A stretch of DNA of 64,000 nt, taken from NCBI RefSeq assembly GCF_004801305.1, contig NZ_SSOD01000016.1, positions 1 through 64,000 on the forward strand, in the 5' to 3' direction. Positions 1 to 12,849 of the stretch are shown here, piece by piece (position 1 is the stretch's first letter; each line of letters opens with the position of its first letter). A program made the position numbers and the translations under genes. The notes under the pieces were generated by a model that was given only the letters and a program-made list of their open reading frames with translations, was not told the origin of the DNA and made no database searches. The stretch is from Pseudothauera rhizosphaerae. Lineage in GTDB: Bacteria; Pseudomonadota; Gammaproteobacteria; Burkholderiales; Rhodocyclaceae.

Positions 1-35
1 TGACCCATTCGACCCTTTCAACCAAGGAGCACACC

Positions 36-461
36 ATGAGCGAAACCACCACCAGCACCACCCCGCCTGTCATCGGCCAGCCGTGGCCCGAACAGGGTGG
101 GATTTTCATCGGCAGCCGCCTGATCGACGGCGATATTCACCACCGGATCATCCCGGGCGGCCCGGAATTCGACATCCCGGCGAGCCACAACAATGCGGCC
201 GAGCGCATCGCCGCGAAGGGCGCGATCAACGGCCACAACGACTGGTTCCACGGTGATCCGAAGGACGTGATGCTGGCCTACATCAACGTGCCGCACCTGT
301 TCCCGAGCAAGGGCATCGAGAGCGTGCAGATCACGTCGAAACCCTACGGGGAATACTACGCGTGGGCTGTGGTTTTCGAGCACGGCGACGTGGACTGCCA
401 CTACCGGCTCAACGAGTTCCGCGTCCGCCCCTTCCGCAGCATCATCGCTTCATCCATTTAA
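36..461 (+). CDS. DGR variable target protein (C-type-lectin/DUF1566-like)
   Basis: Protein diversified by the adjacent retroelement; 141 residues, complete. The start ATG has AAGGAG at 24-29, six bases upstream. The N-terminal half contains GQPWPEQGGIFIGS, an opening I recognise from phage DUF1566-type proteins. The segment from AWAV to VRPFR is written by the variable repeat and has the aromatic/Arg ending typical of DGR lectin folds. Seven residues (ending IASSI) follow the repeat, so the gene does not stop exactly at it. At 141 residues it is short for a DGR target and has no visible signal peptide or membrane segment. It probably presents a variable ligand-binding face, perhaps on a virion, but the tail genes that would prove this lie outside the window. 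Confidence 0.85.
   Translation: MSETTTSTTPPVIGQPWPEQGGIFIGSRLIDGDIHHRIIPGGPEFDIPASHNNAAERIAAKGAINGHNDWFHGDPKDVMLAYINVPHLFPSKGIESVQITSKPYGEYYAWAVVFEHGDVDCHYRLNEFRVRPFRSIIASSI
361..438 (+). repeat. DGR variable repeat (VR)
   Basis: These 78 bases align without gaps to the template repeat at 1021-1098. Ten positions differ (373, 381, 387, 393, 396, 397, 399, 402, 408, 409), and every one is an adenine in the template copy; all 58 non-A positions are identical. The last 27 bases, GC-rich and unchanged, are the likely initiation-of-mutagenic-homing region. Homology starts abruptly at 361. Read in the target frame, template Asn codons have become His, Asp, Asp, Cys, His, Tyr and Leu, one Asn is unchanged, and one Asp became Val. 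Confidence 0.95.
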
Positions 462-467
462 CCCTTC

Positions 468-482
468 GCGGGCGTAGCCCGC
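468..482. repeat. Small hairpin downstream of the VR
   Basis: GCGGGC (468-473), loop GTA, GCCCGC (477-482): a perfect 6-bp stem with a 3-base loop, about 30 bp past the end of the VR and just before avd. Hairpin/cruciform elements at this distance from the VR are known to promote retrohoming in some DGRs. Its role here is inferred from position. It could also affect avd translation, since no Shine-Dalgarno is visible before the avd ATG at 490. Confidence 0.5.
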
Positions 483-489
483 TATCGCC

Positions 490-885
490 ATGGCTTTGCA
501 CACCGACACCGAGATTTACCGCGCCACGTACTCGCTGTGCCAACTCGTGACGCAACTCGTCGCGAACATGCCGAGGAACTACAAGGCCGACTTCGGTGCG
601 GAGTTGCGGCGCCGCTGCATGGGGCTGGTGATGCGCACCTACGAGGCCAACACCGCAGAAGCCGACGAGCGGCCCGCTGTGCTGCGCCGCATGCGTCACG
701 AGGTCGAGGCGGTGAATCTCTCACTGCGACTTGCGAAGGATCTGCGCCTCATCTCCGCCGGCCAGTACGCAAGAGCCATCGCCATCACGGAGAGCATCGC
801 CAAGCAGGCGACCGGATGGCAGAAACACACCGAATCGCGCTTGTCGCCCGCTCGTCAAGGCGGACGGGCCAATGCGCATAGATGA
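490..885 (+). CDS. avd: DGR accessory protein Avd
   Basis: 131-residue basic helical protein of the Avd / 23S rRNA intervening-sequence four-helix-bundle family. The MPRNYKADFGAELRRR segment (about residues 27-42) and the long amphipathic helices around residues 60-105 match the family pattern. Avd forms a pentamer that binds the reverse transcriptase and template RNA and is needed for mutagenic homing. The gene lies between the target gene and the template repeat, the usual order. The basic C-terminal tail (from about residue 115) is probably disordered. No strong ribosome binding site is visible, so translation may depend on coupling or on the upstream hairpin. Confidence 0.85.
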   Translation: MALHTDTEIYRATYSLCQLVTQLVANMPRNYKADFGAELRRRCMGLVMRTYEANTAEADERPAVLRRMRHEVEAVNLSLRLAKDLRLISAGQYARAIAITESIAKQATGWQKHTESRLSPARQGGRANAHR

Positions 886-1006
886 TCTGGTCGAGCCGCT
901 GGGCCACGAGCCCACCGCCAAGCGCATCAGGGATATCGACGGCACCGCCGCAGCGATCCCGCGCAGTTTGCCCGCTGAAGCCGCGCGCCTCGGCGAGCTG
1001 ACGTGA
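872..1006 (+). CDS. Possible small ORF between avd and the template repeat
   Basis: A 44-codon frame starting MRIDDLVEPLGHEP overlaps the 3' end of avd by 14 bases and stops 15 bases before the template repeat. The Shine-Dalgarno is weak. The protein is charged and has no family I recognise. This interval is expected to be transcribed as the leader of the template RNA, so the frame may be incidental. Confidence 0.25.
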   Translation: MRIDDLVEPLGHEPTAKRIRDIDGTAAAIPRSLPAEAARLGELT

Positions 1007-1020
1007 ATAGCTCGAATCTC

Positions 1021-1098
1021 CGTGGGCTGTGGATTTCGAGAACGGCAACGTGAACAACAACAACCGGAACAACGAGTTCCGCGTCCGCCCCTTCCGCA
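1021..1098 (+). repeat. DGR template repeat (TR)
   Basis: Non-coding master copy for the VR. It holds 20 adenines and a run of AAC codons, the known DGR signature: the first two bases of AAC are the mutable A positions, which spread Asn codons over many residues but cannot create a stop. It ends with the same 27-base GC-rich block as the VR and diverges right after, at 1099. It lies 136 bases after avd and 19 bases before the reverse transcriptase ATG, so the template RNA probably spans roughly 890-1120. Confidence 0.95.
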
Positions 1099-1117
1099 AA
1101 TCTCACCGGGTGTTTCT

Positions 1118-2224
1118 ATGGATGCTGGCTATTCGCTCGAATTGCTGGCGCAGGCGTATTTCGACTGCCGCCGGCACAAACGCAACACCGCCAGCGCGCT
1201 CCGGTTCGAGCAGAACCTGGAGCACAACTTGATGGCGCTGCACGAGGAGTTGATGGACGGGTCGTACCGGCCCGGAAAGTCCATCTGCTTCGCGATCAGC
1301 AGGCCGAAACCGCGCGAGGTGTGGGCCGCGATGTTCAGGGACAGGATCGTGCATCACTTGCTCTACAACCACATCGCCCCGCGCTTCATCGCCAGGTTCG
1401 TGGCCGACTCGTGCGCGTGCATCCCAGGCCGCGGCACGCTATACGCCGCGCAGCGCCTGGAGGCGAAGATTCGCAGCCAGACGCAGAACTGGTCACGGCA
1501 GGCCTTCTACCTGAAAGCCGACCTCGCCAACTTCTTCGTGAGCATCGACAAGCGGGTGTTGTGGCCGATGCTGGCGCGGCGAATACCGGAACCGTGGTGG
1601 CGCGGCTTGGCGAAGCTGATCCTGTTCCACGACCCGCGCGAGAACTATGAGGTCCGCGGCGAGCCACGGGCACTGGCAGCCGTGCCGGCGCACAAGCGCC
1701 TCACCAACGCAGGCCCATACTGCGGGCTGCCCATCGGCAATCTGAGCAGCCAGTTCTTCGCCAACGTGCTGCTGGACGCCATGGACCAGCACGTGAAGCA
1801 CGTCATCCGCGCCAAACACTACGTGCGGTACGTCGACGACATGGTGCTGCTGCACGAATCCGCGCAGTGGCTCAACGAGGCGCTGGCCGGCATCAACGCC
1901 TTCCTGCCGGGCCTGCGCCTGACCCTCAATCCGCACAAGACCGTCATCCAGCCCGTTGCACGCGGGGTGGATTTCGCGGGGCACGTCATCAAGCCGTGGC
2001 GGCGCCAAGCCAGGCGCCGGACGGTTCGCACCGCTCTGTCGCGGATCGAGCATCAGCCGGCAGCCCAGACCCTGGAAACCATCAACAGCTACCTGGGCCT
2101 GCTGCGCCACACCGACGGCCACCACGACCGGGCGCGCATCGCGCACGCCGCCCGCAAGCGCGGGCATTGCGTGGATTGGGACGCGACAAGGGCTTTCCGA
2201 CGCTCGGCCGCAGCCGAGACATGA
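1118..2224 (+). CDS. DGR reverse transcriptase
   Basis: 368-residue reverse transcriptase, without fused domains, that copies the template RNA with adenine-specific errors. Visible motifs: KADLANFF with the first catalytic Asp (about residues 133-140), LPIGNLSSQF (about 204-213; the IGxxxSQ box that separates DGR enzymes from most group II intron and viral RTs) and YVDD (about 238-241). I chose ATG 1118 because the frame upstream of it runs through the template repeat. The length is normal for the family. The stop overlaps a possible ATG at 2221 of the next gene, suggesting one transcript with the phage genes that follow. Confidence 0.93.
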   Translation: MDAGYSLELLAQAYFDCRRHKRNTASALRFEQNLEHNLMALHEELMDGSYRPGKSICFAISRPKPREVWAAMFRDRIVHHLLYNHIAPRFIARFVADSCACIPGRGTLYAAQRLEAKIRSQTQNWSRQAFYLKADLANFFVSIDKRVLWPMLARRIPEPWWRGLAKLILFHDPRENYEVRGEPRALAAVPAHKRLTNAGPYCGLPIGNLSSQFFANVLLDAMDQHVKHVIRAKHYVRYVDDMVLLHESAQWLNEALAGINAFLPGLRLTLNPHKTVIQPVARGVDFAGHVIKPWRRQARRRTVRTALSRIEHQPAAQTLETINSYLGLLRHTDGHHDRARIAHAARKRGHCVDWDATRAFRRSAAAET

Positions 2225-2253
2225 CCGCCAACCACTACTTCAGGAATTTGACC

Positions 2254-2694
2254 ATGAACGCACCCAAGGACTTTCGCGCCATGACGGCGCAATCCATCGG
2301 CAAGGATCTGCTCTCGGCGCTTGTCACCGAGATCAAGCTGCTGCCCGAACCCTGGCAGAAGCTGTCCGAGGCCAAGCAGAACGACATCATCGACCGCCTG
2401 CGAGCCCGCGTGGAACACAACGTGGGCATGGCGGTGCACGTGCTCGCCGCCCAGGGTCGTGCAACCGTCGTCGGCGACCTGGAGCAGATCGTCATCAAGG
2501 ACGGCGTAAAAGCGACGCTGAAGTTCAGCCCGGCCGCGCCTAGCCTGCACGAACTGTACGAGGCTCAGGGCAAGGCCGTACTGGTCATCGTGGCCGCCGC
2601 AGCGGATCACACCGCAGGCATGGACGGGGTGAAGGGCTGGAAGGCGTGGCACGAGCAGCAGGAGGCCGAAGGCGCCGAGGAAGGTGCGGAATGA
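2254..2694 (+). CDS. Phage-type protein of unknown function
   Basis: 146-residue soluble protein. ATG 2254 has AGGAA 7-11 bases upstream; an alternative in-frame ATG at 2221 overlaps the RT stop. Residues 15-110 are mixed charged and hydrophobic; the end is strongly acidic (EQQEAEGAEEGAE). The stop overlaps the ATG of the ATPase gene by four bases, so the two are translationally coupled and probably work together. I do not recognise a named domain. By position it belongs to the phage recombination/replication module. Confidence 0.7.
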   Translation: MNAPKDFRAMTAQSIGKDLLSALVTEIKLLPEPWQKLSEAKQNDIIDRLRARVEHNVGMAVHVLAAQGRATVVGDLEQIVIKDGVKATLKFSPAAPSLHELYEAQGKAVLVIVAAAADHTAGMDGVKGWKAWHEQQEAEGAEEGAE

Positions 2695-4499
2695 AACTCC
2701 ACCACATCGCAATCCATAACTTCCTCGGCGCGCGTACCGTCGACCTGCCGCTCGCGCAACCCGTGACCTTGCTGGCGGGGGCCAACGGCGCGGGCAAGAG
2801 CAGCCTGCGGGACGCCATCAGCCTGGCCCTGACCGCCGACCTGTGCCGCGTGAGCAAGAGGGGCGAAGCCGCTGCGCTCATCAGCGAAGGTGCGGCAGCT
2901 GCCCGGGTGTTCATCCAGACCGACGAGCGCGACTACGAGGTCGCCATCTCGAAGGCCGGCAAGATCACCGACAGCGCCGCCGGCAACGAGCCGCACGCGG
3001 CCCTGCCCTTCGTGCTCGATCCGGCCCGCTTCGCCCGCCTGACCGACACCGAGCGCCGCGCGATGCTGTTCGGCCTGCTGGGCATCGAGACCAGCCACAA
3101 GGCCATCGGCGAGCGCATGACGCGCCGAGGCCTCGCCGAGCAGAAGATCGCTGCTGTGCTGCCGATCCTGCGCGCCGGCTTCGGCGCTGGCGAGAAGCAC
3201 GCGAAGGAAATGGCGAGCCAGGCGCGCGGCTCCTGGAAGGCCATCACCGGCGAAGCCTACGGCGACAAAAAGGCCGACGGCTGGGCACTGCCAGCCATCG
3301 ACGCGCCGGCCGGCGCAGACAAGAAGGCCGAGAACGCCGAGCTGCAGGCCAAAGCCGTCGAAGCCGAACTTGCCCAGGCACAGCAGGAACTCGGCGCTGC
3401 CCGGCAGGATGCGGCAACCCGGCGAGAGGCCGCTACCCGCATCGAACGCCTGCGTGAGCAGGCCAGCATGGTCGAGCGCATCAAGGGCCGGCTGAAAACG
3501 GCGGAGGAGAACGACGAGAATTGCCGCGCGCGGCTTGCAGAGTCCGACGGCAAGAGCGGGCTCATCCATGAGCTTGCCTACGCGCTCGACCGCTCCCTGT
3601 CGCTGACCATCCCATTCGGCGAGATGGACGCCGACCAGCGCGCAGTGCTCAAGACGGCAGGCTCCACGCTGGACGCCTACACCGCCCAGCACGGCAAGCC
3701 GGCTGCGCCGGCGCCGGCCGACCCCGCCCGCGCCGATGAAATCCGCCGCGGCCTGCAAACCGCCAAATCCGGCGCCGCGAACGCCCGCCGCGACCTGGCC
3801 ACGGCCGAGGCGGCAGCCATCGAACTGGCCGAACTGGAAAAGGCCCAGCAGGACAACGCGGCCACCGCACCGGTGCTCGATGCCATCGAGGCCCGCATCG
3901 CCGAACTGACCGAGCGCCGCAACAACTGGCAAGCCGACGCCCGCCGCTACCGCGAGGCAGCCGGCGCCGCAGCACGCCGCGCACAGCAGATCGAGCAGGC
4001 CACCCGCCACCATGTCGACGTGCAGCAGTGGTCAGCCATCGCCGACGCCCTGTCGCCCGACGGCATCCAGGCCGAGATGATCGCCGAGGCGCTGGCCCCG
4101 CTGAACAAGCTGCTGGCCGAGCACGCCGCGCTGGCGCAGTGGGCGCCGGTGCTGATCGGCGCCGACATGTCAATCACCGCCGCCGGCCGCGCCTACGGTC
4201 TGCTGTCCGAGTCCGAGCGCTGGCGCGCCGACGCCCTGCTCGCCGTCGCCATCGCCGCGCTGTCCGGCCTGCGCTTCGTGGTGCTGGATCGGCTCGACGT
4301 GCTCGACGCCACCGGCCGCGAGGACGCGCTGTACTGGCTCTCCGACGTGGCCGAGGCCGGCCAGATCGACACGGCGCTGGTGCTGGCGACGCTCAAGAGC
4401 GCCCCGCCGGCCGGTGCTCTGCCGGCGCACATCGCCAGCCGCTGGATAGAGCGCGGCAACCTCATCGCTACCAACGAGAAAGCCCGGGAGGCGGCATGA
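2691..4499 (+). CDS. SbcC/RecF-like AAA ATPase (phage)
   Basis: 602-residue SMC-type ATPase with a split nucleotide-binding domain. The N-terminus MKLHHIAIHNFLGARTVDL is the usual SbcC/RecF opening and is followed by a Walker A, GANGAGKSS (about 30-38). A long Ala/Glu/Arg-rich region (about 210-430) looks like a coiled coil. A signature-like LSESERWRA (about 504-512) and a Walker-B-like VVLDRLD (about 529-535) close the domain; the usual Asp-Glu pair after the hydrophobic strand is not obvious. Such proteins act in DNA end processing and recombination. Four-base overlaps with both neighbours place it inside an operon. No separate SbcD nuclease is visible, but a DnaQ-like exonuclease lies two genes downstream. 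Confidence 0.85.
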   Translation: MKLHHIAIHNFLGARTVDLPLAQPVTLLAGANGAGKSSLRDAISLALTADLCRVSKRGEAAALISEGAAAARVFIQTDERDYEVAISKAGKITDSAAGNEPHAALPFVLDPARFARLTDTERRAMLFGLLGIETSHKAIGERMTRRGLAEQKIAAVLPILRAGFGAGEKHAKEMASQARGSWKAITGEAYGDKKADGWALPAIDAPAGADKKAENAELQAKAVEAELAQAQQELGAARQDAATRREAATRIERLREQASMVERIKGRLKTAEENDENCRARLAESDGKSGLIHELAYALDRSLSLTIPFGEMDADQRAVLKTAGSTLDAYTAQHGKPAAPAPADPARADEIRRGLQTAKSGAANARRDLATAEAAAIELAELEKAQQDNAATAPVLDAIEARIAELTERRNNWQADARRYREAAGAAARRAQQIEQATRHHVDVQQWSAIADALSPDGIQAEMIAEALAPLNKLLAEHAALAQWAPVLIGADMSITAAGRAYGLLSESERWRADALLAVAIAALSGLRFVVLDRLDVLDATGREDALYWLSDVAEAGQIDTALVLATLKSAPPAGALPAHIASRWIERGNLIATNEKAREAA

Positions 4500-4762
4500 G
4501 CGACGACCTCAAGCCGTGCCCGTTCTGTGGCGGAGCGCCAGAACTCGACACGATGCGTGGATTCATCAACAAGCGCGCATTGAACAAGCGCAACGCGCCG
4601 GCCGATCCGAGGCTGGACGACTTGGCGACGCTCGTTCGCCGACTCGCCCACTCGCTCAACAAACCCAGTGGCGACACGATTCTTGCGCAGAAGGCACTGG
4701 ACTACTTGCGCCGGAACGGACTGCAAAACAGTCCGCTCCGCGATACCGACACGAAGGAATGA
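4496..4762 (+). CDS. Lar-like zinc-motif protein
   Basis: 88 residues. The start [12 protein letters not shown] is the hallmark of the Lar (restriction alleviation) family of small phage/prophage proteins. Lar proteins normally carry a second CxxC; here the rest of the chain (a basic helix rich in Leu, Arg and Asn) contains none, so only one half of the zinc site is present. It may be a degenerate or fused derivative, and a real anti-restriction role is uncertain. It overlaps the ATPase stop by four bases and is followed by the exonuclease gene. Confidence 0.6.
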
Positions 4763-4764
4763 CC

Positions 4765-5370
4765 ATGAACCACATCCTCTTCTACGACAGCGAGACATCC
4801 GGCCTCCCGCTTTTCAGCGAACCGTCCGAGCACCCCGACCAGCCGCACATCGTGCAACTCGCCGCCCTGCTGGTCGATCCAGAGTCGCGCGAGACCATCG
4901 CCAGCATGGACGTGATCGTGCGTCCCGCCGGCTGGACGATCCCCGACGAGGTTGCCGCGGTGCACGGCATCACGACCGAGCGCGCAACCGCCGTCGGCGT
5001 GTCCGAGAGCATCGCGCTCGGGCTCTTCCTGGACCTGTGGGGATGCGCCGGCCTGCGCATCGGGCACAACGAGAGCTTCGACGCCAGGATCATCCGCATC
5101 GCCCAGCACCGCTTCGACTGCGGCGAACTCGATGCATGGAAGGAAGGCGCAGCCGAATGCACCGCCCGCCTGGCGACGCCGATCTGCGCCCTGCCGCCGA
5201 CCGAGAAGATGAAGGCGGCCAAGCGCTTCCACTACAAGACCCCGAACCTGGGCGAAGCCTACCGGCACTTCACCGGCCGCGAGCTGGAGAACGCGCACAG
5301 CGCGATGGCCGACGTGCAGGCCTGCCGGGATGTGTATTTCGCGATCAAGGACGGGAGGGAAGCAGCATGA
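4765..5370 (+). CDS. DnaQ-like 3'-5' exonuclease (DEDDh)
   Basis: 201 residues. ExoI motif FYDSETSG near residues 6-13 (Asp and Glu metal ligands), ExoII in [11 protein letters not shown] (about 109-119), ExoIII in [15 protein letters not shown] near residue 180 with the His and Asp of the DEDDh class. Likely degrades single-stranded DNA ends, probably with the SbcC-like ATPase. ATG 4765 has AAGGA seven bases upstream; an in-frame ATG at 4759 overlaps the previous stop and is a second candidate. The next gene's ATG overlaps this stop. Confidence 0.85.
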
Positions 5371-5912
5371 GACACAGTATCCGCCCCGACATCCTCACGG
5401 TCTCGGGCAACTACTTCGACTTCATTCAGCCCCAGAACAGCACCTTCGGCATCCAGGATGTGGCACACGCGCTTTCGCACGTCTGCCGATTCGCCGGCCA
5501 TACCCGGTTCTTCTACTCGGTCGCTCAACACAGCGTGATGGTGTCGCGCATTGTGCCGCTGTCCGATGCCATGGCCGGTCTTCTGCACGACGCGGCAGAG
5601 GCATTCATCGGCGACGTAACGAGACCGCTCAAGCAACTTCTCCCGGACTTCAAGGAGATCGAGCGGCGAGTGGAAAAAGCAGTTCTGGTGCGCTTCGGTA
5701 TCGAGGCCATTCCTCTGTCTGTCAAAGAGGCCGACATCATCATGCTTGCGACTGAGCAACGCGACCTGATGGCGCCTCACGATGACGAATGGGCGCTGAT
5801 CCAAGAAGTGCGTCCACTGCCTGAAACCATCGTTCCGTGGAGTCCAGACGAAGCAAGGAAGCGGTTCCTCGACCGCTTCTTCGAACTGGCGCCCGCAGGC
5901 TGCGCAGCATGA
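5367..5912 (+). CDS. HD-domain hydrolase (YfbR-like)
   Basis: 181 residues. Contains AQHSVMV followed by [12 protein letters not shown] (about 73-84), the His and His-Asp metal ligands of the HD superfamily, and a further conserved Asp in [16 protein letters not shown]. Phage and bacterial relatives are 5'-nucleotidases or dNTP hydrolases. A role in adjusting nucleotide pools during phage replication is inferred. Four-base overlaps on both sides keep it in the same operon. Confidence 0.8.
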
Positions 5913-6367
5913 CCGAGCCTCTTGCCGACCGCATCGCCCGCGAATCAGCCCGCGGCCGCATGCCCGCCACCCACTCCCTGATCCTGCGAGAGATGGCCGA
6001 ACGCCTCGAAGAGGCCGAACGCAAGATCGCCGCCCTTCAACAGCCCTGCCCCGAATGCGCCCGCCGCGCCGAGTGGGCGAACGGGGCCGAGTTCAGAGGA
6101 ACGACCATGACCACCAGCGCCAAGGAATTCCGCCAGTACGCCATCGTGGAGTTGTTCGGCCACGCTTCGCATCGCCGGCCTCATCACCGAGCAGACCATC
6201 GGCGGATGCTCGTTCGTGTCGATGTGCCCGAGATCGTCACCAAGCCGGAGACCGCCGTCAAGCGTGCGAAGTCCGCCGCGCGCGGGGCCGGCCGCAGCGA
6301 CGTGTATGCGCTCGTCCATGTCGGAACGGCCCGTCGGGACGCGGTGTATCGTGAGAAGCAAGCATGA
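5909..6367 (+). CDS. Phage protein, middle probably frameshifted
   Basis: 152-codon open frame starting [17 protein letters not shown]. From an internal ATG at 6107 (preceded by AGAGGA) it reads [19 protein letters not shown], which I recognise as the start of a common phage protein. After that the conserved continuation [17 protein letters not shown] is found only in the +1 frame (about 6165-6220); the original frame resumes with VRVDVPEIV. So a one-base shift near 6163 and a compensating one near 6220 have garbled about 18 residues. The first 66 residues may originally have been a separate gene. Function unknown. Confidence 0.55.
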
Positions 6368-8289
6368 ACCGGAATTCCTTCACCACCGCCCCGTCCGACG
6401 TGCGTGAAATCCGCCACTTCCACCTGTTCTGCGGACTCGGCGGCGGCGCCAAGGGCTTCAACAAGGCTTCGCCCCGGGTGGGCAACATGGTAGGCAAGTT
6501 CCGCTGCATCGGCGGCATCGACGTCGACGCGCCGGCAATCCGCGACTTCGAGCGCCTCACCGGCGCCCGGGGCACCGTGCTGGATCTGTTCGACCGCAGC
6601 CAGTTCATGGACTTCCACGGCGTGGAGCCGCCCGCCGGCTGGCGCGAGGCCGGACCGGCGGACATCCGCGCTGCAGCCGGCGGCGAATATCCGCACATCG
6701 TCTTCCTGAGCGCACCGTGCAAAGGGTTTTCCGGCCTCTTGTCCGAGGGCAAGAGCAAGACGGCCAAATACGTGGCGCTCAATCGGCTTACCGAGCGTGG
6801 CGTATGGATGATGCTTGAGGCATTCTCCGACAACCCGCCGGAACTGGTGATCTTCGAAAACGTGCCGCGGATCATGACCAGGGGTCGTCACCTGCTTGAC
6901 CGGATCGCCGACCTGTTCCGCGCCTACGGCTATGCATGGGCCGAAACGACGCACGATTGCGGCGAGATCGGCGCCTTGGCCCAGAGCCGTAGGCGCTTCT
7001 TTGGCGTCGCCAGGCATCTCGAAAAGGTGCCACCGTTCCTCTACGAACCGCCGCAGAAGCGCCTGCAGGCTGTCGGCACCGTGCTGGGCCGCCTGCCACT
7101 GCCTGGCGACCCAGCCGGCGGTCCCATGCACCGCGTACCTCGCCTGCAGTGGAAGACGTGGGTGCGGCTCGCGTTCGTGGAAGCCGGCAGGGACTGGCGT
7201 TCGCTGAACCGGCTGGCGGTGGAGAATGGCCACCTGAAGGACTATCTGATCGTCCCCGGGTACCACGCTGGCTATCTGGGCGTGGGAAGGTGGAGCGACC
7301 ACAGCGGTACGGTTCAGGGCCACAGCGGACCGACGAACGGTGCATTCTCAGTCGCCGACCCGCGTTTCGACCAGTCAGCCAGGTGGAACGACGGACAGGC
7401 CCTGGGTGTGCGCGACTGGAACGAACCAACCGGCACCGTGGCTGGACAGCAGGGGCCGCTGCAGGGTGCCTACAGCGTGGCGGACCCGCGCCACACCGGT
7501 CCGTCCAAGCACAACAACGAGTTCCGCATCGTGCCGTGGGAACGTGAGGCCGGCGCGGTGACCGGCGCGCACGGCACCGGCCAGTGCGTGGCCGATCCGC
7601 GGAACCATCGAGAGGGCTTTGGCAAATACGCTGTCACGGATTGGAGTGACGCCGCTGGCACCGTGATTTCCGGCAGCACCACCGGACAAGGAGCCTACGC
7701 CGTCGCAGATCCACGCCCGAACGGCATCCCGCAATCCGGCGACCACTACCTGACGGGTGGACACTACGGCGTCGTCGGCTGGGGCGATACCTCTGGCGCA
7801 GTCTCTGCCGCAGCGTGCCACGACAACGGCCGGTGGTCGGTGGCCGACCCGCGAGTTTGCGATTCGGTGCAAGTTGGCAAGTTCTGCATGCCAGCGCCGG
7901 CCGACAAGCTGGTAGCGGTGATCCGTGCCATCGATGGGACGTGGCACCGACCATTCACCACGCTGGACCTCGCCGCGCTGCAGTCGCTGATCGACCCAGA
8001 TGAAATCTGGTCGTCCGACCCGATCACGCAGCGCGCGATCGAGGCGCGCGATTCCGCCTTGATCGCCGAAGCCGTCGGCATCCTCCGCCTGGACGGCGAG
8101 AGCGATAGCGCGTGGCGTGAGCGCATCGGCAACGCAGTACCGCCTGACGCCGCCGAGGCCATCGGCAACGTCATGGGCACCACGCTGCTTCTCGCCTGGA
8201 GCGGGGAGACCTTCGTTCTGTCCAGTGCACCAATCTGGGTGCGGCCGGTGGCGGTTGCGCTCAGCGTCGCGCAAGGAGAATCGATATGA
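6364..8289 (+). CDS. Phage DNA (cytosine-5) methyltransferase with repeat-rich middle
   Basis: 641 residues. Motif I HLFCGLGGGAKGF (about 20-32), motif IV SAPCKGFSG with the catalytic Cys near 119, motif VI FENVPR with the ENV triad at 165-167, motif VIII QSRRRFFGVA (about 208-217) and motif X RIGNAVPPDAAEAIGN (about 590-605) are all present, so it should be active. Instead of a compact target-recognition domain, residues about 300-500 hold five diverged repeats, each ending VADPR and carrying a GTVxG-like core, spaced 110-140 bases apart. Probably protects phage DNA from restriction. No cognate nuclease is nearby. Confidence 0.87.
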   Translation: MNRNSFTTAPSDVREIRHFHLFCGLGGGAKGFNKASPRVGNMVGKFRCIGGIDVDAPAIRDFERLTGARGTVLDLFDRSQFMDFHGVEPPAGWREAGPADIRAAAGGEYPHIVFLSAPCKGFSGLLSEGKSKTAKYVALNRLTERGVWMMLEAFSDNPPELVIFENVPRIMTRGRHLLDRIADLFRAYGYAWAETTHDCGEIGALAQSRRRFFGVARHLEKVPPFLYEPPQKRLQAVGTVLGRLPLPGDPAGGPMHRVPRLQWKTWVRLAFVEAGRDWRSLNRLAVENGHLKDYLIVPGYHAGYLGVGRWSDHSGTVQGHSGPTNGAFSVADPRFDQSARWNDGQALGVRDWNEPTGTVAGQQGPLQGAYSVADPRHTGPSKHNNEFRIVPWEREAGAVTGAHGTGQCVADPRNHREGFGKYAVTDWSDAAGTVISGSTTGQGAYAVADPRPNGIPQSGDHYLTGGHYGVVGWGDTSGAVSAAACHDNGRWSVADPRVCDSVQVGKFCMPAPADKLVAVIRAIDGTWHRPFTTLDLAALQSLIDPDEIWSSDPITQRAIEARDSALIAEAVGILRLDGESDSAWRERIGNAVPPDAAEAIGNVMGTTLLLAWSGETFVLSSAPIWVRPVAVALSVAQGESI

Positions 8290-8459
8290 CCCGCACCGAA
8301 CTGATGCGCGCCATCAACGACCTGATGACCGCCGCCGGATGCAGCCTCACCGAAGACCAGGATGCCGTGCTCGCCGCGGCACTGGCGGTGTTGCTGCCGC
8401 AATACGTCAACGCGGCGCAGATGCCGGAAAAGAAAAATCAACAGGAGGCCGCACGATGA
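8286..8459 (+). CDS. Small phage protein of unknown function
   Basis: 57-residue protein beginning MTRTELMRAINDLMTAAG. Its ATG overlaps the methyltransferase stop and its own stop overlaps the next ATG, so it is embedded in a coupled operon, which is the main support for it being real. The sequence suggests two short helices and a charged tail. No family is recognised. Confidence 0.6.
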   Translation: MTRTELMRAINDLMTAAGCSLTEDQDAVLAAALAVLLPQYVNAAQMPEKKNQQEAAR

Positions 8460-8851
8460 GCATCCTCACTCAACTGCAGGCGGCGAACTCGGCGCCTGCC
8501 GATCCGGCTGCCGTGCCGCATGACTTCGCGCTGCTCTTCGGGCTGGTGCCGCCACTTGCACGGCCGAAGCGCGCAAAGGTGCGCGCGCATCTGCTCGACG
8601 TGCCGGACGATGCTGTAGCGGCCCAGGCGATCAAAACGCCGAAGGCCCGCCCCACGGTGGCGGCGCAGAAGGACTCCATCATGACTGCCCTGGACGCTGC
8701 GGAATACCCGCTGCGCCGCTGCGAGGTATCGGAGCGCACCGGCATTCCGCCCGAGCGCGTCGGCGACTTGCTGCAACTGCTGCGCATCGCCGGCCGCGCG
8801 AAGTCGACCGGGCGCGGCGAAGGCTGCCTCTGGTCGCCCATCAAGACATAG
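8456..8851 (+). CDS. Putative winged-helix phage protein
   Basis: 131 residues. Residues about 70-131 (DSIMTALDAAEYPLRRCEVS, ERTGIPPERVGDLLQLLRIAG, then a basic turn and CLWSP) have the spacing of a helix-turn-helix followed by a wing, as in small phage DNA-binding regulators. The N-terminal 65 residues are Ala/Pro-rich and probably flexible. Assignment is by pattern only. It ends a run of four-base overlaps; a 200-base gap with strong secondary structure follows. Confidence 0.5.
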   Translation: MSILTQLQAANSAPADPAAVPHDFALLFGLVPPLARPKRAKVRAHLLDVPDDAVAAQAIKTPKARPTVAAQKDSIMTALDAAEYPLRRCEVSERTGIPPERVGDLLQLLRIAGRAKSTGRGEGCLWSPIKT

Positions 8852-8856
8852 CCCGC

Positions 8857-8914
8857 GGCATAACTTCCGGTTGCTCGCCCCGCAGGCCATCGGCCTGCAG
8901 TCTGGCACATGCCG
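8857..8914 (+). repeat. Possible decayed attC-like palindrome
   Basis: GGCATAAC at 8857-8864 equals the left box of the well-formed site at 9935-10002. It lies six bases after the preceding stop codon and is followed by a hairpin GCAGGCC-ATC-GGCCTGC and then ATGCC. The right-hand GTT box and the inner GTAAC/GTTGAC arms are missing. The rest of 8865-9058 shows no gene I can support. Confidence 0.25.
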
Positions 8915-9058
8915 GGGCTCGCCGGTCGGCGCGGGCGCGGGTTGGAGCTGAAACCCCGCGCCGACTCCACCTGTACGCGCACAGCCGGCCATGCCCAGTT
9001 CATCGGGCTGCGCGTTCAATGTGCCGAAGGCCGGCACAACCCCAACACCAGGAACATC

Positions 9059-9118
9059 ATGACCACCATCACGCCCATCGCCGCGGCGCAAATCGCACTG
9101 CAGGAGCGCCAAGAATGA
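9059..9118 (+). CDS. Possible 19-residue leader peptide
   Basis: ATG 9059 has AGGAA seven bases upstream and opens a 19-codon frame (MTTITPIAAAQIALQERQE) whose stop overlaps the ATG of the next gene by four bases. The ribosome binding site and the coupling overlap are the only evidence. It could simply bring ribosomes to the 62-residue gene. Confidence 0.3.
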   Translation: MTTITPIAAAQIALQERQE

Positions 9119-9303
9119 CCGCCGCCACCCATACCCTTTCGCGCGAATTCGACAACGGTCGCATTGTTACCGTGACGGTCTCGGGCCAGGCCGACATCGA
9201 CGACATCGTCGACGTCATGCGCGGGTTTCTGGTCCAGCTTGGCTATCACCCCGATGTCGCCAAACGCCTGCATCTGGCTGATGAAGAGGACGATTCGCGA
9301 TGA
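9115..9303 (+). CDS. Small phage protein of unknown function
   Basis: 62 residues: an N-terminal part of alternating hydrophobic and charged residues (SREFDNGRIVTVTVSG, likely two beta strands) followed by a helix and an acidic end. Start and stop both overlap neighbouring frames by four bases, indicating translational coupling with the downstream Ead/Ea22-like gene. I recognise no named family. Confidence 0.55.
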   Translation: MTAATHTLSREFDNGRIVTVTVSGQADIDDIVDVMRGFLVQLGYHPDVAKRLHLADEEDDSR

Positions 9304-9941
9304 CCGACGACGAAATCCAGGCCGTCGAGTTCGCCCCTACGCTTCAGTCAGGCAACTACGTCCCCATGTTCTGGGTGCGCCTGTGCAGCGACGGCGGCTA
9401 CGAAGGCCCGATCCACAATGACCGCATCGAGGATGTCCGCAAGCACTCTGGCGCATGGACGCCGCTGTACCTGGGTGCCGCGACGCCCGTGCCGGCTGTG
9501 GCGCCACATCTCGGTGGGCCAATGATCGACCGTGAATTGCTGGACCTGGAGCGGCTGGCACTGGATGCGACTCCCGGCCCATGGATTGCGTGCGGGCCGC
9601 ACTACGGAGCCCCACATCCTCAATACTTCGATGCGGTCGTGCTTGATGAGGCCAAGGACGGCGGACAGGGAATCGCCCTCGCGCCTGACGGCATGGGCGA
9701 ATCTGGATCGCCCGACATGGCATTCATCGCCGCCGCCAACCCCGTCGTCGTGCTCGATCTGATCAGACGGCTTCGCGCTGCGGAAGCGGCTGCAGGCCGC
9801 GCGAAGAAATTTGCCGACGAACGAGACAAGGCGAGGCTGGAGAACACGAAGCTGAAAGCCGCGCTGGAAGAAATCCGGCACAGCACATACCTACGGCACG
9901 CGACTGCCGTGGCTGCGATAGCGCTGGGCCATGAGGCATAA
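9300..9941 (+). CDS. Ead/Ea22-like phage protein
   Basis: 213 residues. Middle features ALDATPGPW (about 89-97) and DMAFIAAANPVVVLDLIRRL (about 139-158) are the typical signature of Ead/Ea22-like lambdoid early-region proteins, whose biochemical role is unknown. Residues about 160-190 (AAEAAAGRAKKFADERDKAR onward) form a predicted coiled coil. The N-terminal 75 residues resemble no family I can name. Its TAA stop (9939-9941) lies inside the left box of the attC-like site, as in integron cassettes. Confidence 0.65.
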   Translation: MTDDEIQAVEFAPTLQSGNYVPMFWVRLCSDGGYEGPIHNDRIEDVRKHSGAWTPLYLGAATPVPAVAPHLGGPMIDRELLDLERLALDATPGPWIACGPHYGAPHPQYFDAVVLDEAKDGGQGIALAPDGMGESGSPDMAFIAAANPVVVLDLIRRLRAAEAAAGRAKKFADERDKARLENTKLKAALEEIRHSTYLRHATAVAAIALGHEA

Positions 9942-10002
9942 CGTTGGAAGTAACCGGAAGCCCGCCGCAGGCGGGCTGTCCGGTTGACTGAAATGTTATG
10001 CC
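9935..10002 (+). repeat. attC-like recombination site 1
   Basis: 68-bp imperfect palindrome with nested arms in integron attC order: outer GGCATAAC (9935-9942) pairs with GTTATGCC (9995-10002); 9-base unpaired spacers; inner AACCGGA (9952-9958) pairs with TCCGGTT (9979-9985); AGCCCGCC (9959-9966) pairs with GGCGGGCT (9970-9977); loop GCA. G9978 is an extrahelical base on the right arm, and GTAAC versus GTTGAC gives another. The predicted crossover is between G9995 and T9996. It contains the stop codon of the preceding gene. Confidence 0.7.
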
Positions 10003-10024
10003 AGAGACAACTACGGAGAAAAAG

Positions 10025-10276
10025 ATGGAAAACGACACTCGCTACCCCTACACCTACGCTGCCGATTTCTTGCGCGGGTTGGCCGGATATGGGGAAGGTG
10101 GAACGAAACTCTCTCGGTCGGGCGCGAGCCAGGTGCTGCAGGGGATCGCCGCCGCACTCGGCATGGATGACGCGGAGTTGGCTCGGAAGCTTGCCGACCA
10201 CTACAAGGCCAACGAAGACGCGATCACCGAGAAGTCCGCCAAGGCGTTCATGGTGGCGCAAGGCTATGCGGGCTAA
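10025..10276 (+). CDS. Cassette-borne small protein of unknown function
   Basis: 83-residue soluble protein (MENDTRYPYTYAADFLRGLA onward) with a predicted helical C-terminal half ending KAFMVAQGYAG. ATG 10025 is preceded by GGAG at good spacing. The gene fills the interval between two attC-like sites and its TAA stop lies inside the left box of the second one, the classic layout of a single-gene integron cassette of 366 bp (9996-10361). I recognise no family. Confidence 0.65.
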   Translation: MENDTRYPYTYAADFLRGLAGYGEGGTKLSRSGASQVLQGIAAALGMDDAELARKLADHYKANEDAITEKSAKAFMVAQGYAG

Positions 10277-10367
10277 CGCCAGCGTAACCGGCCTTGCGCC
10301 GGGAAAGGACTGAAAATGAGCAACGAACCGCCGCCGGCGCAAGGTCCGGTTGACGTAACTGTTGGGC
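10271..10367 (+). repeat. attC-like recombination site 2
   Basis: 97-bp site. Outer boxes GGCTAAC (10271-10277) and GTTGGGC (10361-10367; a perfect match to the attC core GTTRRRY). Inner arms AACCGG plus CCTTGCGCC (10286-10300) pair with GGCGCAAGG (10336-10344) and CCGGTT (10346-10351), leaving T10345 extrahelical. As in site 1 the right arm reads GGTTGAC then an 8-9 base spacer. A 35-base terminal loop contains the start codon of the next gene (10316). Confidence 0.7.
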
Positions 10368-10552
10368 GGCAATATCGGCTGCTGACACGCGCCGACAGAA
10401 TTGATCACGACGACGAGTTCCTGCAGGAAGATTGCGAGACTTGGCAGATTGACCCGTTGCATATTTTCGCCGGTATGGAGTATTGCCCAGGCGTTCTTCG
10501 TCCAGCACGTCGAAAACTGCCGCCCAACGCCGGAGGTAACGCGCGTGAGTGA
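10316..10552 (+). CDS. Phage-type protein with FAGMxYxPG motif, starts inside attC-like site
   Basis: 78 residues. The segment DEFLQEDCETW followed by FAGMEYCPGVLRPARRK resembles a family of small phage hypotheticals. ATG 10316 has AAAGGA seven bases upstream and lies in the terminal loop of site 2, so the first 15 residues are encoded by the recombination site. The stop (10550-10552) lies in the loop of site 3. The core of the protein is cassette-borne (10362-10578); recombination would swap its N-terminus. Function unknown. Confidence 0.55.
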   Translation: MSNEPPPAQGPVDVTVGRQYRLLTRADRIDHDDEFLQEDCETWQIDPLHIFAGMEYCPGVLRPARRKLPPNAGGNARE

Positions 10553-10584
10553 AACGAACGTCGCCGTTGACCGGCGTGTTGTGC
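10522..10584 (+). repeat. attC-like recombination site 3
   Basis: 63-bp site with outer boxes GCCCAAC (10522-10528; a perfect RYYYAAC) and GTTGTGC (10578-10584), 8-9 base spacers, and inner GTAACG (10536-10541) facing CGTTGAC (10565-10571) with short CG steps toward the loop and extrahelical bases. Its left box, extended to 10519-10528, is the exact reverse complement of 10361-10370, the first bases of the same cassette. This is expected when a cassette circle is inserted at G/TT. Confidence 0.65.
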
Positions 10585-10838
10585 GTGCGCTGATGCTGGA
10601 CGACCTGATAACCGCTGCTGTGCAACTTGCCGGCGAGGATGCCGTGAGCTGTGGCGCGAGACTGTGGCAAAGCGAGGGAGGCCGAGCCTGCCCGCTGGGC
10701 TGGGGCGGCTGCAGCCAACCGGTGTACGTGGACCTGAAAACAGGTGAGTACGACTACGGCGCCACTGGCGGACCGGGACATGCTGACTGCACAAGGAACT
10801 GCCGGCATGGGATGCAGCGGTGCACGGATGATGACTGA
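10545..10838 (+). CDS. Phage-type Cys-rich small protein
   Basis: 97 residues from GTG 10545, with GGAGG about nine bases upstream; the start lies in the loop of attC-like site 3. The core ARLWQSEGGRACPLGWGGCS then VYVDLKTGEYDYG and GGPGHADC is a pattern I associate with small phage proteins; four or five Cys and a His could bind a metal. The stop lies four bases before another left box (10842). Function unknown. Confidence 0.6.
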   Translation: MSETNVAVDRRVVRALMLDDLITAAVQLAGEDAVSCGARLWQSEGGRACPLGWGGCSQPVYVDLKTGEYDYGATGGPGHADCTRNCRHGMQRCTDDD

Positions 10839-10841
10839 GCC

Positions 10842-10883
10842 GCACAACACCTGATATCCGTCACCTGCCGCCTATCAAGGCAG
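10842..10883 (+). repeat. Left half of an attC-like site (truncated)
   Basis: GCACAAC (10842-10848) is the exact reverse complement of GTTGTGC at 10578-10584, the start of the same cassette; the match extends to 8 bases. After 11 bases come GTCACC and a CTGCC/GGCAG stem (10865-10883), then the right arm and GTT box are missing. This looks like the end of the array, cut by other phage sequence. Confidence 0.45.
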
Positions 10884-10895
10884 CACCCCACCAGA

Positions 10896-10925
10896 CCGCA
10901 GCCACGAGCTGCGGTTTTTCGTTTT
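10896..10925 (+). terminator. Rho-independent terminator
   Basis: CCGCAGC (10896-10902), loop CACGA, GCTGCGG (10908-10914), then TTTTTCGTTTT. A strong stem with U-tract that ends the early-gene transcript just before the integrase genes. Confidence 0.85.
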
Positions 10926-10938
10926 CATGAGGGCGCCC

Positions 10939-11130
10939 ATGCACATCCTGTCCGACGACCAGATCATCGAGATCACGCGGCGCGTGCGGCCAAGCGCACA
11001 GCGGCGTATGCTCGACTTCCTCAAAATCCCCTACCGCCAACGCCCGGACGGCACTCCGGTTGTCTTTGAGGCCGACATCCATGCGCCCCCGAAAGAAAGA
11101 TCGTCAGCTCCCCGCCTGCGTCTACCTTAA
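10939..11130 (+). CDS. DUF4224 protein (integrase-associated)
   Basis: 63 residues: MHILSDDQIIEITRRVRPSA, then a FLKIPYRQRPDGTPVVFEA segment typical of DUF4224, a small domain found directly upstream of, and overlapping, phage tyrosine integrases. It is probably a small DNA-binding helper, analogous in size to excisionases, but that is not shown. ATG 10939 has GAGGG five bases upstream; an in-frame ATG at 10927 is possible. It overlaps the integrase gene by 50 bases. Confidence 0.75.
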   Translation: MHILSDDQIIEITRRVRPSAQRRMLDFLKIPYRQRPDGTPVVFEADIHAPPKERSSAPRLRLP

Positions 11131-12061
11131 GCACGGCGCCTACTACTACGTCAAACACGGGAAATGGACGCGGATCGGCACTGGCCTGGAAGCCGCGCTG
11201 CGCGAATACGCCCGCCTGCAGTGCCAGCGGTCAGGCGGCATGGTGGCCCTGATCGAGCGCATGTTGCCGGCCATCCTGGCGGGCCGCGCGCCGGCAACCG
11301 TCCGCAAGTACCGGACCTATGCGCGATACCTGCAGTCCGCGTTTGAAGAGTTCTCCCCGCAGCAGATCACGCAGGCCGACGTGGTGCAACTGCGCCGGCA
11401 CTTGGCCTGCAGCCCGTCGAAGTGCAACGGCGTAATCTCCGTGCTACGGATGGTCTTCGACATGGCGCTGGAAGAGCGCATCGTCGAGTTCAACCCATGC
11501 AGCGGCATCAAGACGGTCCGCCCCGGAAAGCGCACCCGGCGCGTTGAAATGCACGAACTGGAAGCCATCAAGGCCCGCGCCCCGGCACGCCTCGCGGTCA
11601 TCCTTGACCTGTGCTATCTCACCGGGCAGCGCATCGGCGACGTGCTCAAGATCGCCCGCGCCGACCTGCGCGAAGAAGGCATCTACGTCGAGCAGCAAAA
11701 AACCGGAGCCCGCGTGCTGGTGCGCTGGAATGCAGACCTTCGTGCCGCAGTGGATCGCGCGAAGGCGCTGCATGGTGCCGTGGCAGGAATGTATCTACTC
11801 AAGGGCAGTAAGGGCCGGCCGCCGTCCTACAACGGCGTGTGGAAGGCGTACAACATCGCCAGGAAACAAGCCGGCGTGCACGATGTCGTCATCCACGATC
11901 TGCGAGCCATGTCCGGCACCGAAGCCGACAACCAAGGCGCAGACCCGCAGAAGCTACTCGGACACACAGACCGCAGGATGACCGAGCGCTACCTGCGGGA
12001 CAGGAAGGTTGCGCAGGCGGATGGGCCGAGTTTTAGACGTGTCCAAAATAATGAGCGCTGA
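11081..12061 (+). CDS. Phage tyrosine integrase
   Basis: 326 residues. The N-terminal MRPRKKDRQLPACVYLKHG segment through about residue 50 is the short arm-type-binding part; a core-binding domain follows (about 70-150). Catalytic residues are visible: Arg in TGQRIGDVL, Lys in QQKTGARV, His and Arg in HDLRAMSG, His in LGHTDRRM and the nucleophile Tyr in TERYLR. It lacks the extra segment of integron IntI enzymes, so it is a phage integrase that moves the whole prophage. It is the last prophage gene, 26 bp before gloB. Confidence 0.9.
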   Translation: MRPRKKDRQLPACVYLKHGAYYYVKHGKWTRIGTGLEAALREYARLQCQRSGGMVALIERMLPAILAGRAPATVRKYRTYARYLQSAFEEFSPQQITQADVVQLRRHLACSPSKCNGVISVLRMVFDMALEERIVEFNPCSGIKTVRPGKRTRRVEMHELEAIKARAPARLAVILDLCYLTGQRIGDVLKIARADLREEGIYVEQQKTGARVLVRWNADLRAAVDRAKALHGAVAGMYLLKGSKGRPPSYNGVWKAYNIARKQAGVHDVVIHDLRAMSGTEADNQGADPQKLLGHTDRRMTERYLRDRKVAQADGPSFRRVQNNER

Positions 12062-12087
12062 AGCCGCACCATTACTGAGGAAAAGAG

Positions 12088-12849
12088 ATGGACATTATCC
12101 CCCTTCCCGCCTTTCGCGATAACTACATCTGGTTGTTGCGCACCGGGCACGACGCCGCGGTGGTCGATCCGGGCGACGCCGAGGTGGTGGAAAACCACCT
12201 TGCGGAACAGGGGCTTGCGCTGCGGGCCGTGCTGCTGACCCACCATCACGCCGACCACGTGGGCGGCGTCGGCGAACTGCTGGGGCGCCACCGCGTACCG
12301 GTGTTCGGGCCCGCCGGCGAGTCCATCGCCGGGGTCGACCACCCGGTGAAGGAAGGCGACGAGGTGGCGCTGCCCGGGTTCCCGCTGCGCTTCACGGTGC
12401 TCGACGTGCCGGGGCATACCGCCGGCCACGTCGCTTACCGCGCGCCGGGCCTGATCTTTCCGGGCGACACACTGTTCTCCGCCGGCTGCGGTCGGTTGCT
12501 GGGCGGCACGGCAGCGCAGTTGTTCGCCTCCCTCGAACGCCTGGCGGCGCTGCCGGAGGATACCGCGCTGTATTGCGCGCACGAATACACGCTGGCCAAC
12601 CTCGCCTTCGCACACGCGGCCGAACCGCACAATCCGGCGCGGGACGAGTACGCGGCCGCGTGCGCGGCACGGCGCGCCCATGGCCTGCCCACGTTGCCTT
12701 CCACGATCGGCCTGGAACGGCGCGTCAATCCTTTCCTGCGGGTTCGCGAACCCGGCGTGATCGACGCCGTGGCCCGCCATTCGGGGCAGACACCCGCGGG
12801 GCCGGAAGCGTGCTTCGCCGCCCTGCGGCGGTGGAAGGACACGTTCTGA
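12088..12849 (+). CDS. gloB: Hydroxyacylglutathione hydrolase (glyoxalase II)
   Basis: 253 residues, normal length. Metallo-beta-lactamase motif THHHADHVGG (about 51-60), later PGHTAGHVAY (about 109-118), FPGDTLFSAGCGR and CAHEYTLANLAFA are diagnostic of glyoxalase II. It hydrolyses S-D-lactoylglutathione to D-lactate and glutathione in methylglyoxal detoxification. It has its own AGGAAAAG ribosome binding site at 12078-12085. The prophage ends only 26 bases upstream, so the native promoter has been displaced or gloB depends on a phage-borne one. Confidence 0.95.
   Translation: MDIIPLPAFRDNYIWLLRTGHDAAVVDPGDAEVVENHLAEQGLALRAVLLTHHHADHVGGVGELLGRHRVPVFGPAGESIAGVDHPVKEGDEVALPGFPLRFTVLDVPGHTAGHVAYRAPGLIFPGDTLFSAGCGRLLGGTAAQLFASLERLAALPEDTALYCAHEYTLANLAFAHAAEPHNPARDEYAAACAARRAHGLPTLPSTIGLERRVNPFLRVREPGVIDAVARHSGQTPAGPEACFAALRRWKDTF

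Follow-up and report, generated by a model that had tools for sequence, protein, structure and literature searches.

Diversity-generating retroelements (DGRs) of phages have mainly been described as acting on receptor-binding tail proteins (passages of PMC10743442), and the locus studied here raises the question of what such an element varies, and by means of which RNA, when its target genes lie elsewhere. The locus occupies positions 36 to 2,224 of a 64,000-nt stretch (hereafter the window) that forms the start of contig NZ_SSOD01000016.1 (C16) of Pseudothauera rhizosphaerae, assembly GCF_004801305.1. A first-pass annotation had recognized a DGR in a prophage there, with a target gene, avd, a template repeat (TR) and a reverse transcriptase (RT) in this order on one strand, and the order is correct, the strand being plus. 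We hold with good confidence that the locus is part of a complete multi-target DGR in the repressor-to-integrase (early or lysogenic) arm of the prophage, its copying presumably guided by the structured RNA RT-15 and its lectin-fold targets most likely functioning inside the cell.

A repeat search disregarding adenines recovered in the window a 78-nt direct repeat of 87% identity, made up of a variable repeat (VR3, 361–438) and the TR (1021–1098), both on the plus strand. The count given in the first-pass annotation was reproduced by script: VR3 departs from the TR at 10 of 78 positions, all of them template adenines (10 of 20 changed, against 0 of the 58 other bases), and the probability that ten random differences would all fall on A is 1.5e-7. 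Two further repeats of the same genome, VR1 on contig C22 and VR2 on contig C32, carry 12 and 10 changes relative to the TR, again exclusively at template A, so one template serves three targets. When the three VRs are pooled, 32 of 32 differences lie at template A and none of 174 non-A template positions is changed; 16 of the 20 template adenines are altered in at least one VR, with a spectrum of 14 A>T, 9 A>C and 9 A>G. Read in the target frame, the TR contains eight AAC codons. The VRs thereby carry what appears to be the footprint by which mutagenic retrohoming is known in this element.

The avd gene (490–885, plus strand) encodes 131 residues matching Pfam bAvd (E 2.9e-10, 41 bits against a gathering threshold of 40) and phrog_3206, the PHROG family ‘Avd protein of DGR’ (E 4.9e-29); the score with NCBIfam DivGenRetAVD, 39 bits, lies below the cut-off of 80, and a single-sequence search of the PDB with Avd gave no match. 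The RT (1118–2224, plus strand, 368 residues from the ATG at 1118) matches Pfam RVT_1 (E 1.4e-15) and the reverse transcriptase family phrog_1423 (E 1.2e-115). SQ and YVDD motifs are marks of DGR-type RTs, and those first noted as IGxxxSQ and YVDD were confirmed as PIGNLSSQ and YVDD in an alignment of eight RTs. Models of group II intron, retron, DRT and Abi RTs all scored the window RT under their NCBIfam cut-offs, the best non-DGR scores being 93.8 of 300 bits for TIGR04416, 52 of 235 for retron St85 and 36.7 of 450 for Drt4. Together with the A-limited repeat, these profile matches confirm the first identification, every feature of a DGR that could be looked for here was found, and its identity as a DGR is nearly certain.

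Relatives of the element were collected through its RT. Among the best 40 of 107 matches listed, the closest phage RTs are 60.8–64.9% identical and belong to Shewanella phage QDWS, Pseudomonas phages LPPA56, Cruim01, SC_8, phPA-G and Haboob, Burkholderia phage Magia, and zrk29-1, a record of equal length to QDWS. Scans with the eight-RT alignment covered the best 80 of more than 500 genome loci and the best 80 of more than 500 viral loci. The clade is taken as 138 loci with an RT at least about 50% identical, including seven named phages and two duplicate loci (L114 and L125, repeating L027 and L028), which are contained in the count of VR pieces and were dropped afterwards. At least two VR pieces are present in 122 of the 138 loci (none in 5, one in 11, two in 88, three in 30, four in 1 and five in 3), a VR split by an indel being counted as two pieces; in two of the five loci without a piece, L043 and L058, a TR and VRs exist farther from the RT. 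The loci with five pieces per TR are L164, L030 and L115, and L164 has a 277-aa target.

The element extends beyond the contig on which it was first seen. The window starts at base 1 of C16, and its bases 1–3 are the stop codon of the second target gene, T2. A DNA search of the same genome revealed two further target genes, on C22 and C32; a 34-nt match on C12 was taken as chance, the open reading frames (ORFs) there being not RT-like and presumably of sigma-factor and FecR kind. Exact 127-nt overlaps connect the end of C22 with the start of C32 and the end of C32 with the start of C16, giving the joined order T1 (C22), exonuclease, RecT, T2 (C32), T3, avd, TR and RT (C16). The joins are supported by phage Magia, which has the same order of target, nuclease, RecT, target, target, avd and RT. 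Both contig breaks coincide exactly with points of divergence between T1 and T3 (window 127/128; VR position 55/56); a branch in the assembly graph at these points is possible and would hint at recombination between T1 and T3 or at a mixed VR1 in the sequenced culture. On the joined contigs, the prophage location proposed earlier is borne out by minus-strand genes of C22 for a terminase, a portal, a major head protein and a virion protein of 2409 aa, by a repressor-like gene, the exonuclease and RecT on the plus strand of C22 and C32, and by a tyrosine integrase recognized by profile matches at the right end of the prophage (11060–12061, plus strand). According to these strands, the DGR and its targets run with the repressor and integrase, against the structural genes.

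As to the proteins that are varied, the proximal target T3 (36–461, plus strand) is an ORF of 141 residues with a weak match to Pfam Lcl_C (E 0.0077, under the cut-off), and the distal target T2 (186 residues, plus strand, L007:2742–3302 on C32) is recognized from its ORF, the 127-nt overlap and VR2. AlphaFold2 models of T3 (pLDDT 94) and T2 (pLDDT 91) both find the C-terminal domain of Legionella Lcl, 8q4e, as the top solved structure among those compared, with Z 14.3, root-mean-square deviation 3.7 and 123 aligned residues for T3, and Z 13.9, 2.8 and 120 for T2, whose model has an extra N-terminal hairpin and helix. The Lcl domain itself is a secreted adhesin domain. Judged from the models, the VR of both T3 and T2 is at the C-terminus of a protein of C-type lectin fold, as is characteristic of DGR targets. 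T1 and T3 are paralogues, 53% identical, and by comparison outside the VR, T3 is of a proximal type (P), T2 of a distal type (D) and T1 P-like. That comparison was made over the non-VR parts of 94 elements, this one included, that have a proximal and a distal target before avd, with hits of at least 85% identity set aside. The best match of P was P in 89 cases and D in 5, and the best match of D was D in 86 and P in 8, so that best hits outside the own locus fall on the same position in 175 of 188. It follows from this sorting that the parts outside the VR keep their identity by position while the TR keeps the VRs alike, and two target lineages are maintained side by side in the layout D-P-avd-TR-RT. 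An early-arm stretch of phage vB_Pae_U9 (L025:8001–8450; also in vB_Pae_U7), 29% identical to T3, lies beneath an annotated gene of the opposite strand; neither phage is among the best 40 of 107 RT matches listed.

Directly after the T3 stop codon stands a GC-rich hairpin, GCGGGC-GTA-GCCCGC (468–482, plus strand), a candidate target-site stem-loop that is common to T1 and T3 and lies 29 nt past the VR. Stems of at least 7 past the VR occur in 56 of 282 real versus 5 of 282 shuffled sequences. In phage BPP-1 the same test yields an 8-bp stem 4 nt past the VR, and a stem-loop 3′ of its initiation of mutagenic homing (IMH) site has been described (passages of PMC12875486).

Which RNA guides the copying? 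The RT-15 structured RNA (RF03018) matches positions 835–1022 of the plus strand (150.1 bits against a gathering threshold of 82, E 1.9e-36), spanning the 3′ end of avd to the first bases of the TR; the family is said to come from the work of Weinberg in 2017. It is the sole Rfam match in window positions 1–12500 at E up to 1, where no other RNA was found, including RF03022 3′ of the TR; in BPP-1, used as a control, RF03022 (Phage_DGR) matches 2837–2969, beyond the TR at 2699–2832. Among 28 other loci scanned, 20 of them picked for short length, RT-15 is present in 26 (20 of 20 short ones and 6 of 8 others), and in the 25 of these with a located TR its last base falls within a range of 1 base ahead of the TR start to 5 bases past it. 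For 36 sequences running from avd through the TR into the RT, RNAalifold predicted 40 pairs, all before the TR and none in or after it, and 32 of the 40 show change on both sides in one or more sequences. The possibility of a 3′ spacer RNA hidden within the RT gene was also considered and rejected, since no synonymous constraint is seen in the 5′ codons of the RT: mean entropy at 4-fold sites is 1.42 over codons 1–25 (5 sites) versus 1.31–1.61 in other intervals, codons 26–50 having only 9 sites. Furthermore, TR and RT are separated in four loci, by about 1.1 kb in L058, 0.5 kb in L154, 0.3 kb in L175, and in L043 with an intervening gene (L043:2915–3823) starting MKAIDLFAGAGGFS, which we take to be cytosine-methyltransferase-like; RT-15 remains with the TR in all four. 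The simplest reading is that RT-15 and the TR together form the functional template RNA, with its predicted structured part at the 5′ side.

RT-15 might instead be a separate regulator, such as a translational switch for the RT or a stop for reverse transcription, with RT and Avd recruited by the 3′ end of the TR. This would suit the position of RT-15 ahead of an RT frame without a stop anywhere in the TR. In the window, 19 nt separate the TR end from the RT ATG and the previous in-frame stop is at 1004; across the 129 loci with a located VR (a set different from the 129 loci used for neighbour counts below), the frame is open through the TR in 114, and 82 have no ATG, GTG or TTG from the TR to the fifth codon of the conserved RT core. 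With the frame open and start codons missing after the TR, translation of the RT may include the TR. BPP-1 moreover has a motif at the end of avd that is reported to halt reverse transcription (passages of PMC12875486). On the other hand, RT-15 follows the TR and not the RT in the four split loci, and structured RNA 3′ of the TR was not detected by the Rfam scan, at synonymous sites or by RNAalifold. We therefore regard a purely regulatory RT-15 as rather unlikely.

If RT-15 is instead the 5′ part of the template RNA, this leader would recruit RT and Avd, which would copy the TR RNA into cDNA with errors at A, and the cDNA would replace the VR sequence beside its conserved 3′ end, with the downstream hairpin helping. 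The products would be two kinds of small protein with a lectin fold, D and P, neither showing an evident export signal. In our view they most likely work within the cell, in the lysogen or at an early stage of infection, by binding in a variable manner to proteins of host defence or of rival phages, and do not serve as tail fibres. Taken alone, this intracellular role is one towards which we lean only slightly.

Where the targets lie bears on this role. It had been remarked that the target is short and located beside recombination genes rather than a tail module; this is right, and it applies to the relatives too, to the extent that they were tested. Scans for VRs with each TR, run over six named phages, C22, C32 and the window (a match needing 75% of the non-A positions; Haboob covered over 50,000 of its 50,033 bases; phPA-G left out of the whole-genome scan), placed VRs only outside annotated structural modules; the annotated tail genes of the six named phages and the structural region of this prophage yielded none. 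For LPPA56, annotated mostly as hypothetical, and SC_8, with 8 annotated features, this statement depends on strand and position. Neighbours were counted by BLAST with 57 reference proteins in 129 clade loci without the named phages, so that the counts are lower bounds. An integrase lies downstream on the same strand in 50 of 129 loci (30 of the 58 with at least 9 kb downstream), 31 of 89 loci have a same-strand repressor upstream, and 16 of 103 have same-strand recombination genes, while structural genes were seen on the same strand in none of the 129 and on the other strand in 2. Clade targets of at least 90 aa (n = 276) have a median length of 157 aa with a 10th–90th percentile range of 121–205, and in the three targets of this element the best 19-aa mean hydrophobicity is 0.57, 1.09 and 0.70, with no strongly hydrophobic segment.

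The targets could, however, be accessory virion or receptor-binding proteins encoded at an unusual genomic place, and the DGR would then serve host-range switching as in BPP-1. The Lcl-fold matches are adhesin domains, and among viral structures T2 matches those of tail-fibre, S74-domain and receptor-binding proteins, so that a lectin of such a fold can be a receptor binder. Host range is also one possibility named by the authors of the Magia announcement (passages of PMC7883833). But the targets are on the opposite strand to the structural genes and beside the repressor, RecT and integrase, no VR lies in an annotated tail gene of the genomes scanned, most targets are short as stated above, and the T3 and T2 models contain no fibre domain, so we consider a virion role unlikely.

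Several observations weigh against the reading of an RT-15-guided DGR with intracellular targets, in addition to the T2 structure matches just named. The contig joins come from 127-nt overlaps and synteny, not from reads. T2 is without a hairpin of the T1/T3 kind past its VR, and RT-15 was not found in L041 and L070 of the 28 loci scanned. An integrase stands elsewhere or on the other strand in 6 loci, and the repressor went undetected by BLAST for most loci. The intracellular role is drawn from gene position, strand and the missing strongly hydrophobic segment, and the best 19-aa mean exceeds 1.6 in 21 of the 276 clade targets. Finally, activity in this strain is deduced from its sequence footprint.

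The element could also be a relic, with VRs diversified once and now fixed; in favour of this, a second isolate of this prophage is not among the 5 other genomes of the genus that were searched, two of which gave short matches (34–122 nt) to part of the RT and nothing longer. In one of these genomes (G003; L186 and L188) the short matches belong to other RTs, 32–40% identical, two of them close together in L186. Yet avd, the RT and the targets of the present element are all ORFs, the 0 of 174 changed non-A positions mean that no drift has accumulated there, and in several close relatives the differences are confined almost entirely to VR adenines. It had been proposed that related strains would show A-limited variation, and this was examined in the relatives. 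Between Haboob (Denmark) and phPA-G (Portugal), whose RT DNA is 99% identical, 13 of 32 adenines differ in one VR and 12 of 34 in the other (25 of 66 pooled), and none of the 68 and 69 other bases does (0 of 137 pooled); the 150-nt flanks upstream of these VRs are 97% and 100% identical. For loci whose RT DNA is 90% or more identical, 24 VR comparisons were made; 10 show no difference (nine of identical copies or duplicate records, one of L094/L095) and 14 differ at adenines, nine of them there alone. Four differ at 1 or 2 other sites as well (L023/L046 twice, L106/L107, L130/L134), and L135/L136 differ at 19 of 70 non-A VR sites, beside a divergent flank. The expectation is thus mostly upheld, as by the Haboob and phPA-G pair, with exceptions in five comparisons, four of them at one or two sites. 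We think it very improbable that the element is a relic.

In the clade as a whole, 3580 of 8631 template A sites are changed versus 58 of 20,273 others, the latter being a lower bound, since the TR–VR scan penalises non-A differences and VRs with more than a quarter non-A changes were dropped from the count. Template A before G is rarely changed in the clade VRs of L018–L185 (19 of 1471, 1.3%), versus 42% where C follows, 63% where A follows and 39% where T follows. Either a context preference of the RT or selection acting on CAG, GAG and AAG codons could be the cause; the first-position A of AAG, whose next base is A, has a low rate as well (9%), which speaks partly for selection. That the VRs resemble each other through ordinary duplication and gene conversion between target genes, as the paralogy of T1 and T3 might suggest, has a negligible chance of being true, since this would not restrict 32 of 32 differences to the adenines of a separate template copy.

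Among the neighbouring genes, two tRNA genes (Pro and Ala) lie upstream of T1, the integrase is adjoined by a gene that is presumably gloB-like, and window 6364–8289 encodes a phage protein of 641 aa (phrog_116, phrog_32684) that resembles DNA methyltransferases and has a repeated insert containing VADPR.

Compared with known systems, the element shares with BPP-1 (mtd/avd/TR/brt; the record names the gene in the avd position bbp7) the TR, the RT, an A-limited and C-terminal VR, a hairpin past the VR, and the order target-(avd)-TR-RT. BPP-1 brt is 31.7% identical to the RT here, and the BPP-1 VR has 4 non-A differences in the test by which the VRs of close relatives were compared. BPP-1 has one tail-protein target whereas three early-arm targets are found here, 144 nt between TR and brt instead of 19 nt to the RT ATG, and the Phage_DGR RNA 3′ of the TR instead of RT-15 5′ of it. 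Closer to home is Magia (MT701587), with an RT 61.8% identical and the same order of target, nuclease, RecT, D, P, avd, TR and RT, although its AAA ATPase lies between RecT and D and not, as here, past the RT. The Magia announcement names genes 47 and 57 as targets (passages of PMC7883833), and we found a third VR in gene 46. Multi-target DGRs are known, with two targets in about 13% of cassettes, and the gut phage DGRs with tentaclins likewise combine one TR with two lectin-fold targets of different topology; one of their targets has its VR near the 5′ end and is treated as receptor-binding (passages of PMC10743442), in contrast to the C-terminal VRs and early-arm position of both D and P here. 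In a large survey, viral targets of clades 1, 4 and 6 are mostly tails, and early-arm targets are unmentioned in its sections 8 and 9 (PMC8144416). DGR-based immunity has been proposed, with mention of cytosolic VR proteins and superinfection exclusion (passages of PMC10053308). In the portions of this literature consulted, neither a stable D/P pairing nor a 5′ RNA was found, and a link between RT-15 and DGRs may already be in print.

The element thus departs from the BPP-1 type in RNA layout, target pairing and target place, and its relatives are common in temperate phages of proteobacteria. More tentatively, temperate phages may possess a two-chain hypervariable recognition system, in which paired D and P proteins, diversified from one template, would act inside the cell against host defences or rival phages, together with a reversed template RNA, in which a 5′ RT-15 leader would do the job of the BPP-1 3′ spacer and the TR would lie inside the RT frame; we regard this as possible, if speculative. 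If the intracellular role is true, hypermutation in phages would extend beyond receptor-binding tail proteins to proteins used within the cell. The placement of RT-15, if true, would supply a role for an RNA family that Rfam labels simply ‘RT-15’, and its 5′ position predicts a different priming architecture for mutagenic reverse transcription.

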